Assembly: GCA_013002065.1 (NCBI GenBank)
Contig: JABDKT010000204.1
Span: 1-43,666 of the forward strand
Source: Flavobacteriaceae bacterium
Lineage (GTDB): Bacteria; Bacteroidota; Bacteroidia; Flavobacteriales; Flavobacteriaceae
DNA: 43,666 nucleotides
Reading direction: 5' to 3'
Each line of letters begins with the position of its first letter. The first letter of the stretch is position 1. Shown piece by piece: positions 9,820 to 18,213 of this stretch. The translations under genes and the position numbers were made by a program. Below the pieces are notes generated by a model that was not told the origin of the DNA, made no database searches, and worked only from the letters and a program-made list of their open reading frames with translations.

Positions 9820-10443
9820 TTAACTTAGCTCGAATAATCCGTGTAATTCGGCGTCTATTTTATTGATGACTTCCCCTAGATCCTCTGGGTTATCCACAAA
9901 GTTGAGGTTATCGACGTCAATTACCAGTAGGTTGCCTTTTTCATAATCATGAATCCATGCCTCATACCGCTCGTTCAGACGACTTAAGTAATCAATACTA
10001 ATTGAATTTTCATAATCCCGCCCACGCTTGTGAATTTGATTCACCAAATTAGGAATGGAACTGCGCAAGTAAATGAGTAAATCTGGACCTTTGGTCACAC
10101 TTTCCATAAGATCAAATAATGCACGATAATTCTCATAATCGCGATTTGTCATCAAACCCATGGCATGTAAATTGGGTGCAAAAATATAAGCGTCTTCATA
10201 AATCGTACGATCTTGAATCACTTTCTTTCCGCTTTCACGAATGTCCAGTATTTGACGAAAACGACTGTTTAAAAAGTAAATTTGAAGGTTGAAAGACCAG
10301 CGTTCCATCTGATTGTAAAAATCGTCCAGATATGGATTGTCTTCTACATCCTCATAATGAGCTTTCCATTTGTAATGCTTGGCTAATAAACGCGTGAGCG
10401 TGGTCTTACCGGAACCAATATTTCCTGCAATGGCAACATGCAT
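9820..10443 (-). CDS. Deoxynucleoside kinase (dNK / deoxyadenosine-deoxyguanosine kinase family)
   Basis: 207 residues, normal for bacterial dNK. It phosphorylates deoxynucleosides to their monophosphates in nucleotide salvage, in the cytoplasm. A P-loop is present at residues 7-15 (GNIGSGKTT), then a substrate-binding region rich in aromatics (EDVEDNPYLDDFYNQMERWSFNLQ), the DRTIYED motif with the conserved Arg-Glu catalytic/substrate pair, and a LID-like RGRDYENSI segment. Substrate (dA/dG versus dC) cannot be told from sequence alone. The start lies 5 bases after the stop of the upstream hypothetical gene, so it is the last gene of a minus-strand operon that probably begins with the histidine kinase. 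Confidence 0.93.
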   Translation of the reverse strand: MHVAIAGNIGSGKTTLTRLLAKHYKWKAHYEDVEDNPYLDDFYNQMERWSFNLQIYFLNSRFRQILDIRESGKKVIQDRTIYEDAYIFAPNLHAMGLMTNRDYENYRALFDLMESVTKGPDLLIYLRSSIPNLVNQIHKRGRDYENSISIDYLSRLNERYEAWIHDYEKGNLLVIDVDNLNFVDNPEDLGEVINKIDAELHGLFELS

Positions 10444-10448
10444 AAATC

Positions 10449-11225
10449 TTACTGCTTAGGTTGGGTTAGTGAATAAGTGAAAACCATATTTCCGTTATAA
10501 ATATACAGGAATTCTTGCGTTAGCTGCAAGTCTTTAATGGGTTTTTCGTTGAATGCAACATCAATTGGTACTATGGATTCTTCGGAAATGGAAAAGAGTT
10601 CATTTTCTTTGGCTAACATGACCATTTTGCCACTCCGAACGACCCGTTCGAATTCAGATATTTCAGTTTCAAATAATAAGCCTCCATAAATATTTATCTG
10701 GCTCAAACTGTTCTCAGTCAACACAAAGCAATCGTTAAAATTACTCACCTGAGACCTTAAAATTCCATTGATAGGCTGAGAAACAATCGTTTCTCTTTTA
10801 TTTCTGTAATCATAAAGTTGAAGCTGCTGCGTGTCAATATTGAATAACCACAACCGATTGTTTCCGGCATTTGTAGCGCCACCACAATTTATGAATGAAT
10901 CTAGTTCGTTGAAATTAATTCGCTCCTTTTCATTAAGGCGATTGTCTAAAAAAACCACCGTATTTACTTCAGCATAAAAAACCACCACATTCAACGGATT
11001 GATAATATCAACCGACGAAATGGGCCCCAATTGGTAATCCTTGAACACGAACTTTCCTAAATCTCCATCCTTGTGAAGCACACCTTCATTTATATAATAC
11101 AAATGTTGGTATCCATCATATCCAATAAAACGATCTGCTTGTAAAAAGAGGGAGTCTTTGAGGGTTAATTGTTGTCCAGTCAAAGTAAAAGAAGCCAAAA
11201 AAAGAAGAAAGAAACAACGTTTCAT
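10449..11225 (-). CDS. Exported hypothetical protein, beta-propeller-like
   Basis: 258 residues with an N-terminal signal peptide (RCFFLLFLASFTLTGQQ). The remainder is a series of short beta-strands with repeated F/L-D-x-x-x or L-Y-D turns (YQHLYYINEGVLHKDG, NRLWLFNIDTQQLQLYDYRN, KMVMLAKENELFSISEES), suggesting a small periplasmic beta-propeller. I recognise no catalytic residues and no named family beyond a flavobacterial conserved hypothetical. It sits 31 bases after the response regulator and 5 bases before the deoxynucleoside kinase, which suggests co-transcription. Role unknown. Confidence 0.8.
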   Translation of the reverse strand: MKRCFFLLFLASFTLTGQQLTLKDSLFLQADRFIGYDGYQHLYYINEGVLHKDGDLGKFVFKDYQLGPISSVDIINPLNVVVFYAEVNTVVFLDNRLNEKERINFNELDSFINCGGATNAGNNRLWLFNIDTQQLQLYDYRNKRETIVSQPINGILRSQVSNFNDCFVLTENSLSQINIYGGLLFETEISEFERVVRSGKMVMLAKENELFSISEESIVPIDVAFNEKPIKDLQLTQEFLYIYNGNMVFTYSLTQPKQ

Positions 11226-11256: not shown

Positions 11257-11937
11257 TCAATATACTAATTTGTAACCGTAACCCCGCACGTTGATTATCT
11301 GAATATTAGAATCCTTTTTAAGTTTTTTCCGAAGTTTACTTATAAAAACATCCATGCTTCTAGCGCTAAAAAAATCATCGTCGTTCCATAATTTTTTTAG
11401 GATAATAGAACGATCCAAAACCTTATTTCTATTGTTAGCGAGATGAAAAAGCAAGTGAGCTTCCCTATGAGTTAGTGAAACTGCCTCTTCATTCTTGTAT
11501 TGCAGTAATTGTTTTTTAAACTGAAATAAATAATCTCCGATGTTTAATTCGGTGGCAGGAACAGTAAGCCGGTAATTCAGTAAATTATTAATCCGAACTA
11601 TAAGCTCTTCAATACTAAAGGGTTTTTTTAAATAATCGTTTCCGCCCAAATTGAATCCTTCCACCACATCTTGAGGCTGCGATTTGGCGGTTAGGAAAAG
11701 AATAGGAATCTCTTCGTCCTGCATTCGAATTTCTTTCGCAAGTGTAAATCCATCCTTCTTTGGCATCATCACATCCAATACAAGTAATTCCGGTTTGTGC
11801 TCGGTGTAGGTTTGAAAAGCTTCCAGGCCGTTTTGACAATAGAACACTTCGAATCCCTTTAACTCCAAAGTTTCTTTTACGATGAGCCCTAATGCTGGTT
11901 CATCCTCGGCTAGTAATATTTTGGCGTTAGGATTCAT
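11257..11937 (-). CDS. OmpR/PhoB-family response regulator (RprY-like)
   Basis: 226 residues. The receiver domain (about 5-118) has acidic residues E11/D12, phosphoacceptor Asp-55 in LLVLDVMMPKKDG, a LFLTAKSQ segment and the invariant Lys in YLKKPF. A winged-helix domain (about 128-226) ends with the typical VRGYGYKLVY. Family members bind tandem direct repeats as head-to-tail dimers. Its start overlaps the upstream kinase gene by 11 bases, making a cognate pair resembling Bacteroides RprX/RprY. The likely targets are its own promoter and the divergent GLPGLI genes, because three 10-bp direct repeats lie between them. Confidence 0.95.
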   Translation of the reverse strand: MNPNAKILLAEDEPALGLIVKETLELKGFEVFYCQNGLEAFQTYTEHKPELLVLDVMMPKKDGFTLAKEIRMQDEEIPILFLTAKSQPQDVVEGFNLGGNDYLKKPFSIEELIVRINNLLNYRLTVPATELNIGDYLFQFKKQLLQYKNEEAVSLTHREAHLLFHLANNRNKVLDRSIILKKLWNDDDFFSARSMDVFISKLRKKLKKDSNIQIINVRGYGYKLVY

Positions 11938-13408
11938 AGGGTAAACTTATAATAAAACGGGTGTTCGGACGAATATTAACTTCAATATTTCCGCCGTGCT
12001 TCTCGATAATTTTTTTGGTATAATAAAGGCCAATTCCAAAGCCTTTTACATCGTGTGTGTTTCCTTTAGGGACTCGATAGAATTTTTCAAAGATTTGTTT
12101 CTGCTGTTGGTCGGTTAAAGAATTGCCCGAGTCACTTATTTCAATAATAATATTACCCTTTTGTTCCTTTAAATCAATGTTTATAGTGTCCCCACCGTAC
12201 TTTATGGCATTATCCACAATATTGTTGATCGCATTTTCAAAATGAAATCCGTCCACCGGATAATAAATCTCCTTCGATGTACCGTCGTATTTGATTGTTT
12301 TGTCAAGACCCGACAAATTTTCTTGTGTGGCAATTTTCCGAAGCATTTCAGAAAGATCTATGTTTTCATAATTGAGATGAAGCTCGTCGCTGTCCAGTGA
12401 GGCAGTTTCAAGTAGTTTTTCTACCATCATATTTAATTTCTCTACCTGCTCTTTTGAAATCTTCGCATATCTCAGATTTTTCTCTTGATCCTTTGCCGCA
12501 TCGAAATTAGTTATGGCTTCCATGGCGATTCCAATAGTGGCAATGGGTGTTTTGAACTCATGTGTAATGTTACTGATAAGATCATTTTTTACTTCAGCCA
12601 GCTGTTTTTGATGTTTGATGATTCTGAGTAAATACAATAGACATGCAATAACGCCAGCCACCAATAAGAAGGACAACAAAATTCCTATCATGTTCTTTTT
12701 TAGTAGAACTAAGGTGATATTACTGAAATGAGCTCTTAAATAATTTTTATGGAAAAAATAGGGCGATTCGGAAGTAGTCTCTAAGGTGGCCTGACTAATA
12801 ATTTTTGGTCGCAAAGAATCGTTTTGCTGAAAAAGTCCCGAATGACTTAATCCGTATTCCAATTTGATGTTTTTTCGTTTTAATTCTTCGGAAAACAAAC
12901 TATCCACCTTCCGAAGAGAAAGTCGGTCTTCAGAAAATGAAACAATAATTTTAGATGATAATTCACTTATCGGATTTTGAGCACTGTCGATAATCCGCAT
13001 AAGGTTATCGCCCATGGAAAATGTTCTTAAACTGTCAATAAAGGTGAGATTCAACTCCACACTGTCTTTAAAGTTAGATTTCATAATGGTAATGCCGTTC
13101 CTCATAGAATCTGAATGAAAAATAGGGTCATTTGGATGCAGTATAGAATCCCATTTTTTCTTAGCACTAAACTTGCGGTTACCGTAACTTATCTTTACGC
13201 TGTCATTGGCAAAGGTGTATTCATTATCGACAGCGAGATTAGTGTAATATTGATCGACCGCATTATCCAAACTAGTTTGAACATCGTTCATTAACTGCTG
13301 TTTACTCACCAAGTAATTTTTGTAATTCCAATACACCTGAATGCAAAGTGTTGCCAGAATTACTATCGCTATGAAATAGATAATACTCTTGTATTTCAAT
13401 CCGTTCAT
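11927..13408 (-). CDS. Transmembrane sensor histidine kinase (RprX-like)
   Basis: 493 residues. Two membrane segments (about 8-27 and 236-261) bracket a roughly 210-residue periplasmic sensor domain with no recognisable fold motif. A HisKA domain follows with the phosphoacceptor His-283 in ISNITHEFKTPIA, then HATPase_c with the N-box (FENAINNIVDNAIKYG), G1 (EISDSGNSL), F-box (IFEKFYRVPKG) and G2 (GFGIGLYYTKKI). It is the first gene of the minus-strand operon and overlaps its response regulator gene by 11 bases. The divergent neighbour encodes envelope proteins, so an envelope signal is plausible but unproven. Confidence 0.95.
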   Translation of the reverse strand: MNGLKYKSIIYFIAIVILATLCIQVYWNYKNYLVSKQQLMNDVQTSLDNAVDQYYTNLAVDNEYTFANDSVKISYGNRKFSAKKKWDSILHPNDPIFHSDSMRNGITIMKSNFKDSVELNLTFIDSLRTFSMGDNLMRIIDSAQNPISELSSKIIVSFSEDRLSLRKVDSLFSEELKRKNIKLEYGLSHSGLFQQNDSLRPKIISQATLETTSESPYFFHKNYLRAHFSNITLVLLKKNMIGILLSFLLVAGVIACLLYLLRIIKHQKQLAEVKNDLISNITHEFKTPIATIGIAMEAITNFDAAKDQEKNLRYAKISKEQVEKLNMMVEKLLETASLDSDELHLNYENIDLSEMLRKIATQENLSGLDKTIKYDGTSKEIYYPVDGFHFENAINNIVDNAIKYGGDTINIDLKEQKGNIIIEISDSGNSLTDQQQKQIFEKFYRVPKGNTHDVKGFGIGLYYTKKIIEKHGGNIEVNIRPNTRFIISLPYES

Positions 13409-13448
13409 GGGTTAAAAGTAGTAAGTTAGAGCTAAGTTCCCCAAATGC

Positions 13449-13478
13449 GTTAACACTAGTTAACACTGCTTAACTTTA
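13449..13478. promoter_or_regulatory. Three tandem 10-bp repeats (GTTAACACTA / GTTAACACTG / CTTAACTTTA), candidate response-regulator operator
   Basis: Three head-to-tail copies with core TTAAC at exactly 10-bp spacing lie in the 121-bp divergent region between the kinase and the first GLPGLI gene. OmpR-family regulators bind direct repeats spaced 10-11 bp. The block ends 18 bp before a near-consensus -7 (CATCTTTG, 13497-13504), placing it at the -33 region of the GLPGLI promoter as expected for an activator. Confidence 0.55.
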
Positions 13479-13529
13479 GAAAAGGGAAACTCGTTGCATC
13501 TTTGTAAGAGTAAAATAAAACACATAATC

Positions 13530-14375
13530 ATGAAATCACTTATACAACTTAGTTTGGTCTTGACATTTATCTGTCTTTCCCAAATTCACGCACAAAGCAT
13601 TCAAGGGGAAGCTACTTATAAGAGTCATCGGCAAATGAAAATCGAACTGGACAGTTCTCAGGTGAACGATGCCATGCGTCAACAAATCATGGCGCAATTA
13701 AAGAAACAATTCGAAAGGGAATACACCCTAGAATTTACCAATTACGAAAGTATTTACAAGCAGGTGGAAACATTGGAAAGTACACCTTTGGCCGGTGATG
13801 GTATGCAAATAGTGGTTGCCGGAAGTGGTGATAGCGATATACTCTACACGAATACTAAAGAGAATCGATTTACCAATCAGAATGAGATGTTCGGGAAGTC
13901 ATTTCTCATCAAAGATGAATTAAACCTGCCCGAATGGGAACTCACAAAAGAAACTAAAAACATAGGTGACTATACCTGTTTTAAAGCTACCTATACCTAC
14001 GAAAGAGATGTCATGCGAACAAGAGTGCGTCGCGATGGTGGCGATGTCGAAGAAACTCCTGCCGAAAAGGAATCGATTACGGTTTCGGCCTGGTACACGC
14101 CTCAAATTCCGGTGCAACATGGTCCGGCCGATTATCAAGGCTTGCCGGGAATGATTTTGGAGGTAAACGATGCCGAACTCACTTTGTTATGCAGCAAAAT
14201 AGTACTCAATCCTAAAAGTGGAATTCAAATCAAAGAACCTACCAAGGGGAAACTGGTAAATCAAGAAGAGAACGACAAGATTCTGGAAAAGAAAATGACC
14301 GAAATGAACGAACGATTTGAGGGCGATGGCAGACGTGAAGATGGAAATAGCATTGAAATTAGAATAGGAGGTTAG
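13530..14375 (+). CDS. GLPGLI family protein
   Basis: 281 residues. The ATG at 13530 is chosen over the TTG at 13494 because it begins a proper signal peptide (MKSLIQLSLVLTFICLSQIHAQ). The family signature appears as PADYQGLPGMILEV, preceded by the usual V-x-AWYTPQIPVQHGP stretch, with an early EATYKS strand and a YTLEFTNYESIYK strand typical of the family. Function is not established; members are exported proteins found next to outer-membrane barrel proteins in Bacteroidota. It is followed by a paralogue and a large barrel protein, and is divergent from the two-component system that probably controls it. Confidence 0.92.
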   Translation: MKSLIQLSLVLTFICLSQIHAQSIQGEATYKSHRQMKIELDSSQVNDAMRQQIMAQLKKQFEREYTLEFTNYESIYKQVETLESTPLAGDGMQIVVAGSGDSDILYTNTKENRFTNQNEMFGKSFLIKDELNLPEWELTKETKNIGDYTCFKATYTYERDVMRTRVRRDGGDVEETPAEKESITVSAWYTPQIPVQHGPADYQGLPGMILEVNDAELTLLCSKIVLNPKSGIQIKEPTKGKLVNQEENDKILEKKMTEMNERFEGDGRREDGNSIEIRIGG

Positions 14376-14471: not shown

Positions 14472-15362
14472 ATGAAAAAATTATTTCTTCTACTATTAGT
14501 TTTTTATTCTTTTACCGGGATTTCCCAAAGTATCAGCGGTATCGCGTATTATGAGTCCAAAACAACCATTGATATGGATAATTTTGGACGTAGGGATATG
14601 ACCGAGGCCATGAAGAAGCAGATTGCCGACAGGATGAAAAGCATGCTGGAAAAAACATATATACTCACCTTCAATAATAATGAATCGATTTATAAGGAAG
14701 AGGAAAAGTTGGAAGCCGGAGCAGGTGGAGGCGGATTTCGAATGATGATGAGCAGTTTTACTCCCGGGGAGCAGTACAAAAACATTGAGACCAATCAAAT
14801 TTTGGAGGAGCGTGAATTCTTCGGAAAGCAATTCTTGATCAATGATACTATTACCAATTTACAATGGGAAGTGGGGAAAGAGTCCAAACAAATTGGCCAA
14901 TATCTGGCTATAAAAGCCACAGCGATAAAACAGGTGGACCCAAATGATTTCAGTATGGCTCGAAGAAGACGACCGCCTAGTGAGTCGGAAGAGAAAAAAG
15001 AAGGTGAAGAAGTGAAGGATAGTATTCCGAAGGAAAGAGATCCCATGGACGAGATTGAGGTGCCCAAAGAAGTAACGGTAACAGCGTGGTTTACACCACA
15101 GATTCCGGTGAAGACAGGGCCCGGAGAATACGGCGGATTGCCCGGACTTATACTCGAATTGAATATAGATCGAACTACGCTCTTATGTTCGAAGATAGTT
15201 TTAAATCCGAAAGAAGCCGATAAAATTGCTCCTCCCGAAAAAGGGAAAGAAGTGAGCCGAGAGGAGTACAACAAAATAGTAAAAGAAAAAACCGAAGAGA
15301 TGCGTGAAAATTTCCGAAGAGGAGATGGTAGAAGAGGTGGCGGACGCAGATTCGGTGGATAA
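14472..15362 (+). CDS. GLPGLI family protein, second copy
   Basis: 296 residues with a signal peptide (KKLFLLLLVFYSFTGISQ). The exact GLPGLI signature occurs in GEYGGLPGLILELN, preceded by VTAWFTPQIPVKTGP. It aligns along its length with the previous gene (SGIAYYESK / GEATYKSHR; NNESIYK / NYESIYK; LLCSKIVLNPK identical in both), so they are tandem duplicates. It differs by an acidic/basic insertion before the signature (residues about 165-200) and a Gly/Arg-rich C-terminus (RRGDGRRGGGRRFGG). It starts 96 bases after the first copy; I see no strong promoter between them, so they probably share a transcript. Confidence 0.93.
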   Translation: MKKLFLLLLVFYSFTGISQSISGIAYYESKTTIDMDNFGRRDMTEAMKKQIADRMKSMLEKTYILTFNNNESIYKEEEKLEAGAGGGGFRMMMSSFTPGEQYKNIETNQILEEREFFGKQFLINDTITNLQWEVGKESKQIGQYLAIKATAIKQVDPNDFSMARRRRPPSESEEKKEGEEVKDSIPKERDPMDEIEVPKEVTVTAWFTPQIPVKTGPGEYGGLPGLILELNIDRTTLLCSKIVLNPKEADKIAPPEKGKEVSREEYNKIVKEKTEEMRENFRRGDGRRGGGRRFGG

Positions 15363-15447: not shown

Positions 15448-18213
15448 ATGAAAAAACTAATTTTTGCCATTATAATGCTTGTAACTGGAGGGGTTACGGC
15501 ACAAACTGTAAAGGTGCGAGGAACTATCAAAGATTCTATTGGTAATCCGTTAGAGTTGGCGAATGTAATAGCAACGGTAAAATCTACCGGTGATATTGAA
15601 TCTTACGCGATTACAAATTCTGATGGCCGATTTCAGCTGGATCTTCCAAAAAATAATACCTACCTACTCAAAGCGAGTTTCTTGGGCTATGAAAATGCGG
15701 AAGCGGAAGTGGTTGTTTCTGAAACTTCCGAAAACTTGAATCGTGATTTTGTTTTAAAACAATCGGCGGCACAGTTGGCAGACGTTGAGTTAGTTTATGA
15801 AATGCCGGTGACGGTACGTGGTGATACGATTGTCTATAATGCAGATTCCTTCAATCGAGGAGACGAAAAAAAGTTGGGAGATGTGATGAAAAATTTACCC
15901 GGAGTGGAAGTCAACGACGAAGGTGAGATTGAGGTGGAAGGAAAAGCAGTCCAAAAGGTAATGGTCGAAGGAAAGGATTTCTTTGACGGAGATTCTAAAT
16001 TGGCCACCAAGAATATTCCTGCAGATGCCGTCGATAAAGTTGAGGTACTTCGGAATTACAACGAAGTAGATCAAATGCGAGGTCTGGGGAACGATCAGGA
16101 TAATGTAGCGATCAATATCAAGTTAAAAGAAGGGAAAAAGAACTTTTGGTTTGGGGAAGTCACAGCAGGAGCAGGAATTGATGATGAAGAGGAAGCTCGC
16201 TACTTGGTTCATCCTAAGTTGTTTTATTACAGTCCCAAGTACAGTTTAAATTTTATTACCGACTTCAACGATATAGGGGAAGTTCCGTTTACCTGGCGAG
16301 ATTATTTCAACTTTACGGGGGGCTTCCGAAATTTTAATCGAGGAGGGGGTACGAATTTTAATATAAGTGAGAATGATCTAGGTTTTGCCATTGCGCAAAA
16401 TAATCGGGCAAACGCCATCGAGACAAACTTCTTTGCCGGGAATTTTAGTTGGAGAGCGTCAAAAACGTGGGATGTAAGCGGATTTACGATACTTTCAGAT
16501 AATACAACCAATATCGTCACCAATTCAATTCGTCAATACATTTCGACCGGAACGATCGAAAATACGGTGAGTGATACCGATCAAAGAAATCAGTTGGGTA
16601 TGTTTAAATTGAGTAGTGTATTCAAACCGAACACCAACTTCCAACTGGATTATGACGCTTTGGTGAAAACGTCCAAACAAACCGAGGATGCTTCCACTTT
16701 ATCCATATTCGATGAGAATACAAACGATATTTCAGAAGCGATAGAAAACAGACCTACCTCTATCAATCAAAACGTGAATGCATATTTCACCTTGGATGAT
16801 GATAATATCTTTGCCGGACAAATTCAGCATCTATGGCAGGACGAAGATCCTTTTTACAATGCTATTACAGATTTAGTTCCCTTTCCCGGGATTTTGCCAT
16901 TAGATACACTTCAGAATCGATATAACATCAACCAAGAGAAGAATATTAAGACAAATAAACTGGATGCTAAGGTCGATTACTATTATGTGATCAATAATAA
17001 AAGTAATGTGAATCTAACACTGGGTGGAACCTTTAGCGATCAAAAATTTAATTCAAATATTTTTCAATTATTGGATAACAACAATAGAGAAGATTTAACT
17101 GAAACTCCTCTTATTGATGGTGAAACTGAGTCTTTGGAGAATGATGTTACTTATGGTTTCACAGATGCATTTTTAGGATTGCACTATAAGTTTAGGACTG
17201 GGAAATTTACATTTACGCCCGGAGTGACGCTTCATAATTACAACGTGAAGAATCGACAGAACGGGTTTACGACCTCTCAAAACGATTGGATGTTGCTGCC
17301 GGATGTGAACGCCATCATGGAACTTAAAAAAAGCGAAAATTTACGTTTCAATTACGCCATATCTGCCGAATACACCGACATAGTGAATTTTGCGGAAGCC
17401 TTTGTCTTCAACAACTACAACCGATTGTTTAGAGGAAACAGATTCTTGGAAAATGCATTATCGCACACCTATAATTTGTCCTATTTCAGCTTTAATATGT
17501 TTAACTACACCAATGTAAGTGCGTCGTTAAATTATACCCGAAGAGTGGACGGAATAAAAAGTAGTACCGATATAGTCGCTATTAATCAGGTGAGTAGTCC
17601 AATCAATATTGACAGTAATTTTCCCGATGAGACTTTTTCGGCCTTTGCCAGATGGAGCAAGCGGGTGAAGAAAATTCAGTTTACTGCCAATGCTAATTTG
17701 GCGCTTAGTAAGTCGAATAATATCATCCAAAATCGAAGTTTTGATGGCGGGGGGAACCCCACATTTTCAGAAATGATACAATTAAGCGAGAGTTTCACTC
17801 AAAGTTACAGAGGTAGTGTTCGTAGTAGCTTCAGAGACTGGCCAAATTTCGAGGCGGGTTATAATATTACCATTAACAATTACAACAATGGTGGTTTAGA
17901 ACAGACATTCTACACCCAGCGTCCTTATGTGAATATGGATGTAAACTTTCTGAAACACTTTTCGTTATCGGCAAATTGGGATTTCTATTTCTATCGAGAT
18001 GAAAACAACACTGTTGAAAACGATTATTCTTTTATGAATGCGACTTTGTATTATCAGAAAGGGGACAGCCCTTGGGAATTATCCGTTCAGGCAACCAATA
18101 TTTTGAATAACGAATCTACGAACAACGATAGCTTTAACGATCAGTTCAATACGACGAACCAGTATTTTGTACTGCCTAGAATTGTAATGTTGGTAGTGAA
18201 ATACGATTTATAA
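15448..18213 (+). CDS. Outer-membrane beta-barrel protein with carboxypeptidase-regulatory-like and TonB-plug-like domains
   Basis: 921 residues. ATG at 15448 preferred over the TTG one codon upstream. Signal peptide (KKLIFAIIMLVTGGVTAQ), carboxypeptidase-D regulatory-like domain at about 20-105 (VRGTIKDSIGNPLELANVIA...FLGYENAEAEV), then a plug-like region (LGDVMKNLPGVEVNDEGEIE...VEVLRNYNEVDQMRG), then about 680 residues of barrel strands with the many Asn/Tyr/Phe turns of the TonB-receptor-like OMP_b-brl_3 group. It is known that proteins of this type are neighbours of GLPGLI proteins, and here it follows two of them; the three probably act together in the outer membrane, for example in export or uptake of an unidentified substrate. 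No TonB box is evident. Confidence 0.9.
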   Translation: MKKLIFAIIMLVTGGVTAQTVKVRGTIKDSIGNPLELANVIATVKSTGDIESYAITNSDGRFQLDLPKNNTYLLKASFLGYENAEAEVVVSETSENLNRDFVLKQSAAQLADVELVYEMPVTVRGDTIVYNADSFNRGDEKKLGDVMKNLPGVEVNDEGEIEVEGKAVQKVMVEGKDFFDGDSKLATKNIPADAVDKVEVLRNYNEVDQMRGLGNDQDNVAINIKLKEGKKNFWFGEVTAGAGIDDEEEARYLVHPKLFYYSPKYSLNFITDFNDIGEVPFTWRDYFNFTGGFRNFNRGGGTNFNISENDLGFAIAQNNRANAIETNFFAGNFSWRASKTWDVSGFTILSDNTTNIVTNSIRQYISTGTIENTVSDTDQRNQLGMFKLSSVFKPNTNFQLDYDALVKTSKQTEDASTLSIFDENTNDISEAIENRPTSINQNVNAYFTLDDDNIFAGQIQHLWQDEDPFYNAITDLVPFPGILPLDTLQNRYNINQEKNIKTNKLDAKVDYYYVINNKSNVNLTLGGTFSDQKFNSNIFQLLDNNNREDLTETPLIDGETESLENDVTYGFTDAFLGLHYKFRTGKFTFTPGVTLHNYNVKNRQNGFTTSQNDWMLLPDVNAIMELKKSENLRFNYAISAEYTDIVNFAEAFVFNNYNRLFRGNRFLENALSHTYNLSYFSFNMFNYTNVSASLNYTRRVDGIKSSTDIVAINQVSSPINIDSNFPDETFSAFARWSKRVKKIQFTANANLALSKSNNIIQNRSFDGGGNPTFSEMIQLSESFTQSYRGSVRSSFRDWPNFEAGYNITINNYNNGGLEQTFYTQRPYVNMDVNFLKHFSLSANWDFYFYRDENNTVENDYSFMNATLYYQKGDSPWELSVQATNILNNESTNNDSFNDQFNTTNQYFVLPRIVMLVVKYDL

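Follow-up and report, generated by a model that had tools for sequence, protein, structure and literature searches.

Three head-to-tail 10-bp boxes with TTAAC cores, placed between divergent genes for a histidine kinase (HK) and response regulator (RR) on the minus strand and GLPGLI-GLPGLI-barrel genes on the plus strand, are with high probability the operator of the neighbouring OmpR-family regulator, which would activate the divergent GLPGLI operon and autoregulate the HK-RR genes. Judging from the aligned sequences, the boxes are conserved in more than 100 related bacteria. The more surprising part of the finding is that control of the operon seems to have been exchanged between the two-component system and an ECF-type promoter. 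The window, i.e. the whole stretch of 43,666 nucleotides that was analysed, carries the following features at this locus:

9820..10443, minus strand: deoxynucleoside kinase (dNK), a syntenic marker of the locus with or without the two-component genes
10449..11225, minus strand: 258-aa protein outside any Pfam family, its gene downstream of the RR gene
11257..11937, minus strand: OmpR-family response regulator, 226 aa (Response_reg and Trans_reg_C), the proposed binder of the boxes
11930..13408, minus strand: sensor histidine kinase, 493 aa (HisKA and HATPase_c), with a periplasmic domain between two membrane helices
13413..13420, minus strand: -7 element TACTTTTA of the HK-RR promoter (TACTTTTG in most orthologues)
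13449..13478, plus strand: three head-to-tail 10-bp boxes, candidate operator of the neighbouring OmpR-family response regulator (box 1 GTTAACACTA at 13449, box 2 GTTAACACTG at 13459, box 3 CTTAACTTTA at 13469)
13497..13504, plus strand: -7 element CATCTTTG in the promoter of the GLPGLI operon (consensus TANNTTTG)
13530..14375, plus strand: GLPGLI-family protein 1 (TIGR01200 / PF09697)
14472..15362, plus strand: GLPGLI-family protein 2
15448..18213, plus strand: outer membrane beta-barrel (OMP_b-brl_3) with a CarboxypepD_reg-like N-terminal domain, third gene of the proposed operon

The regulator consists of a receiver domain (PF00072) and a winged-helix domain (PF00486), both scoring over their cut-offs. 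The model of the kinase sensor domain is reliable only near the membrane helices and over roughly the last 120 residues, and a search with this predicted structure returned no PDB match at E < 0.001. GLPGLI proteins are common across Bacteroidota; we know of no function for them. The GLPGLI model (mean pLDDT 86) is like the N-terminal domain of PNGF-II and weakly like ependymin and RseB, a predicted fold that would suit a periplasmic protein carrying or sensing hydrophobic molecules. At about one third of the loci, the first gene past the site, ahead of GLPGLI1, encodes a protein of ~120 aa with a signal-peptide-like start (L006, L012, L014, L015, L021-L025, L027, L030 and L094); the one member examined has no Pfam family. 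One kinase orthologue (G136:C4:222122-223564) has a single internal TGA in the assembly.

Read directly from the sequence, the TTAAC cores occupy positions 13450-13454, 13460-13464 and 13470-13474, with a period of exactly 10, and the box consensus among orthologues is (CG)STTAACACWMGTTAACAYTNGTTAAC. The sequence-only reading, which had described three TTAAC repeats phased at 10 bp, was thus correct at 13449-13478; the interval that it gave, 13449-13504, ends on the right at the last base of the -7 element CATCTTTG. When up to two mismatches are allowed, 13449-13478 is the sole place in the window that matches a threefold STTAAC pattern, with one match on each strand, GTTAAC being palindromic; none of 100 dinucleotide shuffles gave the pattern. 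The 2.8-Mb assembly holds one other place, with two mismatches, and a reversed control pattern gives at least as many; a relaxed two-box search of the window's genome returned 3 matches against 9 in the control. Further sites above control level were not found in this genome and, as there is apparently one strong site, the regulator would be local rather than global.

On the GLPGLI side the boxes are followed by a sigmaA-type promoter. The element CATCTTTG differs from the -7 consensus at the first base alone, and.A..TTTG is found at a fixed place in 111 of the 122 loci, beginning 23 nt past the final base of the box 3 TTAAC. From the published flavobacterial -7 consensus and the distance of 4-5 nt between this element and the start (PMC6847099, PMC9723704), the GLPGLI transcript is predicted to start at ~13509, and the HK-RR transcript at the kinase's own ATG. 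The centres of the boxes are at approximately -37, -47 and -57 relative to the predicted GLPGLI start, which fits the earlier suggestion that they sit where an activator would contact this promoter. On the other side, a gap of 4 nt separates the -7 element from the kinase ATG (13408), both in the window and in 87 of the 117 loci in which an HK-side -7 element was found; a -7 element so close to the ATG leads to the prediction that the HK-RR transcript is leaderless. The predicted leaderless kinase mRNA (13408-13420, minus strand) can be set against the mapped mRNAs of F. psychrophilum, merely 5.5% of which are leaderless (PMC9723704). A scan for E. coli-type promoters found 25, about the number in shuffles (24.1).

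Operators of the OmpR/PhoB family are built from half-sites in tandem, spaced by roughly one turn of the helix, as in the pho boxes of PhoB, the F and C boxes of OmpR and the direct repeats of ArcA. The window site is like these in having direct repeats with a spacing near one turn, which lie upstream of the -35/-33 contact or replace it, and in the adjacent gene of an OmpR-family RR. Unlike them, it has its three boxes spaced by exactly 10 bp, their TTAAC core is unusually constant, and the divergent promoter region around them has -7 elements of the Bacteroidota type. In an operator of this family, two or more direct half-sites with a spacing of about 10-11 bp are expected ahead of a promoter, and three are present here; three do not fit a simple dimer, which is a point against the proposal.

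We propose that phosphorylated regulator protomers would line up head to tail along a single face of the helix, each occupying one 10-bp box. Relative to the GLPGLI promoter, box 3 would then span -39 to -35, in place of the sigmaA -33 contact, and the regulator encoded at 11257-11937 would touch RNA polymerase and activate transcription of GLPGLI1, GLPGLI2 and the barrel gene. Boxes 1 and 2, at approximately -41 to -55 of the HK-RR promoter, would serve the autoregulation of the leaderless HK-RR transcript. It is from position that the direction of regulation is deduced. In a variant of this explanation the regulator binds the boxes and represses the GLPGLI promoter. Certain OmpR-family regulators do repress, and box 3 is near the expected polymerase footprint, but the -7 element is free and box 3 takes over the position of the -33 contact; we consider repression rather unlikely. 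A link between GLPGLI/barrel expression and envelope signals is plausible, and the system would offer a precise switch for one GLPGLI operon, a kinase with which to search for the signal and a consensus for finding further targets.

A search for the kinase covered 151 family genomes, with each genus represented once, and found a clear orthologue in 52. An exact TTAAC-N5-TTAAC-N5-TTAAC adjoins the kinase in 48 of these (for one of the 48, the assembly is fragmented and the triple is on a different contig), and the remaining four have a degenerate triple at the same position. The distance from the boxes to the kinase ATG is usually 39-42 nt. A scan of named genomes by kinase alignment gave 80 loci, 78 of them not truncated by a contig end; 74 of the 78 have the exact triple, and GLPGLI and barrel genes are on the opposite side in nearly all named loci. 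The range reaches Roseivirga and another member of the Cytophagales, whose kinases are 36-41% identical. An order-level sample yielded no window-type kinase outside the family. In a gapless alignment of the loci, the information gathers at the boxes and at both -7 elements. The repeat is short and AT-rich, as a chance or neutral tandem repeat might be, but its conservation at more than 100 loci, among kinases as little as 36-40% identical, and the exact triple in 48/52 and 74/78 orthologous loci whose flanking intergenic columns are mostly near zero information, together with its absence from shuffles, make such an origin practically negligible.

Of the 151 family genomes, 61 contain the exact triple. 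Among the 99 genomes without the kinase it is present in 13, mostly in non-consensus sequence, and the reversed control pattern also finds several; one kinase-less genome (G113, a 64% complete assembly) has a triple of good sequence ahead of the barrel gene. These triples are a point against the proposal. The association of triple and kinase is strong (Fisher p ~1e-22), although the genomes are related and not independent; the same operon without the pair was therefore examined as a stronger control. Eleven kinase-less genera hold close GLPGLI1 orthologues (228-338 bits), and in all 11 the gene order is dNK, 258-aa-type gene, GLPGLI1, GLPGLI2, barrel, so that in these genera without HK-RR the 258-aa-type gene adjoins the GLPGLI operon, with one extra gene in some. 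None of the 11 operons has the boxes, the best match having 4-6 mismatches, against 48 of the 52 loci with the kinase that do. A GLPGLI1 tree calls for six or more gains or losses of the pair, of which well supported branches force three; the site tracks the pair in the three supported independent comparisons, a number below that needed for a sign test. The closest of the comparisons is between L004, with the pair, and L216, without it (support 100/99). The sequence-only reading had proposed that the boxes are a target of the neighbouring two-component system and that the repeat be sought at orthologous loci. It is present there, and its wide conservation and its absence where the pair is missing make the boxes very probably the docking site of the sensor's partner.

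Loci in which the two promoters have become separated bear on which of them the boxes serve. In L123 and L132 a 326-aa gene lies between the kinase and GLPGLI1; the kinase side has two boxes at the customary 40/50 nt, and the GLPGLI1 side has three boxes and a -7 element. In L031 the kinase is preceded by two boxes and the neighbouring gene by three, and L142 has a full site ahead of the first gene and a one-mismatch copy ahead of GLPGLI1. These splits argue that both promoters are genuine clients and that, as far as the arrangement of boxes can tell, three boxes are used at the target promoter, while two can be enough at the kinase promoter. The earlier designation of the GLPGLI genes as the target is supported, with the correction that the HK-RR operon appears to be served as well. 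In a few genomes there are also isolated triples, 45-82 nt ahead of genes mostly for secreted or outer-membrane proteins, a part of which may be chance matches:

L092: ahead of a barrel gene orthologous to 15448-18213
L085: ahead of another CarboxypepD barrel gene
L086 and L090 (two genera): ahead of a DUF4440-like secreted protein gene
L087: ahead of a thioredoxin-like protein gene
L088: ahead of an aspartyl-protease-like protein gene, of a kind also present inside the L125 cluster
L089: a Spy/CpxP-like protein gene on the other side

It could be argued that the site serves autoregulation of HK-RR only, the closeness of the GLPGLI genes being a by-product of the divergent layout, as the near-constant 39-42 nt between boxes and HK start would allow. 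We regard this as very unlikely, since the distance to the GLPGLI -7 element is equally constant, the GLPGLI gene retains three boxes after separation while HK has only two, and the extra triples precede genes of the target type that are distant from HK.

The pair had earlier been called RprXY-like. RprY (NF051850, of the RprXY system of Bacteroides and Porphyromonas) is the best NCBIfam match of the window RR, yet the score of 252 bits is under the cut-off of 370, and the window RR is not the best RprY match of its genome: a regulator at C164:4404-5099, beside the gene of a 520-aa kinase-like protein, scores 282 bits, also under the cut-off. The identification of the window pair as RprXY itself was rejected on these grounds, and the pair is taken to be a paralogous one. 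Just upstream of the RprX-like kinase gene in the window's genome (L115, 2773-2815) there are several TTAAC cores, including a minus-strand pair with a spacing of 11 nt.

The C164 regulator could share or compete for the boxes. It is 43% identical to the window regulator, and the recognition helices of the two are similar (RSMDVYIAKLRKYL and RSMDVFISKLRKKL, respectively). The boxes might even be bound mainly by this widespread RprY-type paralogue instead of the neighbouring regulator. Such a reading would gain from PhoP of Riemerella anatipestifer (RAYM_RS09740), an OmpR-family RR that binds upstream of its own operon (PMC9603813, PMC5399024), as its DAP-seq core, TTTAACA (583 peaks), and its direct targets, which include several GLPGLI genes, a beta-barrel gene and a Do-protease gene (PMC9603813), resemble the site. 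It would also gain from a related, TTTAAC-led triple between the divergent dapF and DegP-like protease genes in L091 and L098, one of the two genera having the window-type kinase and the other lacking it; this triple is possibly a site of an RprY-type regulator. However, a paralogue-like kinase of ~520-530 aa persists (with weaker matches) where the window-type kinase is missing, and yet the site is missing from the same operon in 11 such genera. The (TTTAACN4)3 class is rare, occurring in only 5 of 151 genomes, and was dropped as a separate class for the RprY paralogue. Binding mainly by the paralogue is, in our estimate, distinctly improbable, and the neighbouring regulator remains the preferred binder.

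Riemerella PhoP, the regulator of a relative, appears to share with the proposed window system the OmpR-family type, a TTAAC-containing core (TTTAACA), the GLPGLI and barrel targets and binding upstream of its own operon. It differs in being global, with its 583 peaks against the single window site, and in the base preceding TTAAC, which is G or C in the window boxes. In Porphyromonas gingivalis, of a more distant Bacteroidota order, deletion of the regulator gene PG0720 changed two GLPGLI genes and a DUF4252 gene; a motif or direct site was not found in the searched text of that paper (PMC8757827). The effects of the two regulators on GLPGLI genes, one with a TTTAACA core, count for the operator reading (PMC9603813, PMC8757827).

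Where the pair is missing, another promoter takes the place of the boxes:

L214 and L216-L224, upstream of GLPGLI1: TGWAAC-N16-CGTC instead of TTAAC boxes

In these 10 of the 11 pair-less genera, TG(A/T)AAC or a one-base variant is followed after N16 by CGTC, i.e. a TGWAAC-like -35 and a CGTC -10 at a fixed spacing. A motif score of 9-10 of 10 with a spacer of 16 is reached in 10 of the 11 pair-less loci, in 2 of the 122 loci with the pair and in 1.4% of letter shuffles. The motif exceeds the rate of a reversed control in seven of seven genomes, from 16 against 11 at the least to 25 against 7 and 15 against 3 at the most. In the window's own genome, TGTAAC-N16-CGTC stands 69 nt ahead of a gene for an ECF sigma factor (Sigma70_r2/r4; G000:C31, L256). 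A CGT-box ECF motif is known to control T9SS genes in F. psychrophilum (PMC9723704). The fixed spacer, the counts above control, the match at the ECF sigma gene and the known CGT-box make it very likely, on these sequence grounds, that the replacement is an ECF promoter, and a sigma factor would use TGWAAC-N16-CGTC in the pair-less genera. A dedicated promoter at orthologous operons that lack the boxes is expected if the boxes are needed for expression, which tells against repression by the bound regulator.

One of the two high-scoring loci with the pair, L071, has the triple and its -7 element and then, 3 nt further, TGTAAC-N16-CGTC; it appears to carry both promoters and is a possible intermediate. 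We lean towards the view that the operon has been repeatedly handed, among related genera, between two unrelated signalling systems, with the two-component boxes on one hand and the TGWAAC-N16-CGTC promoter of an ECF sigma factor on the other, perhaps by way of arrangements such as L071; at this locus the HK-RR genes are either fully there or cleanly missing. If this is true, two-component and ECF systems would both be signalling much the same state of the envelope, to which GLPGLI proteins of RseB/LolA-like fold would respond, and the swap of a two-component operator and an ECF-type promoter would be a clean natural case of changed control. The exchange would suggest that the operon is part of an envelope response under either system. 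Our literature searches found no description of the kinase-regulator pair, the three-box site or the exchange with an ECF promoter.

Two further observations concern the ECF-type motif in the window's genome. The ECF sigma gene of L256 is followed by two small genes, the first of which resembles an anti-sigma gene in its position and in encoding a predicted membrane segment. In L255 (G000:C98) the motif occurs twice, ~163 nt apart, ahead of the gene for an 845-aa CarboxypepD protein, and this tandem arrangement recurs in other genera.
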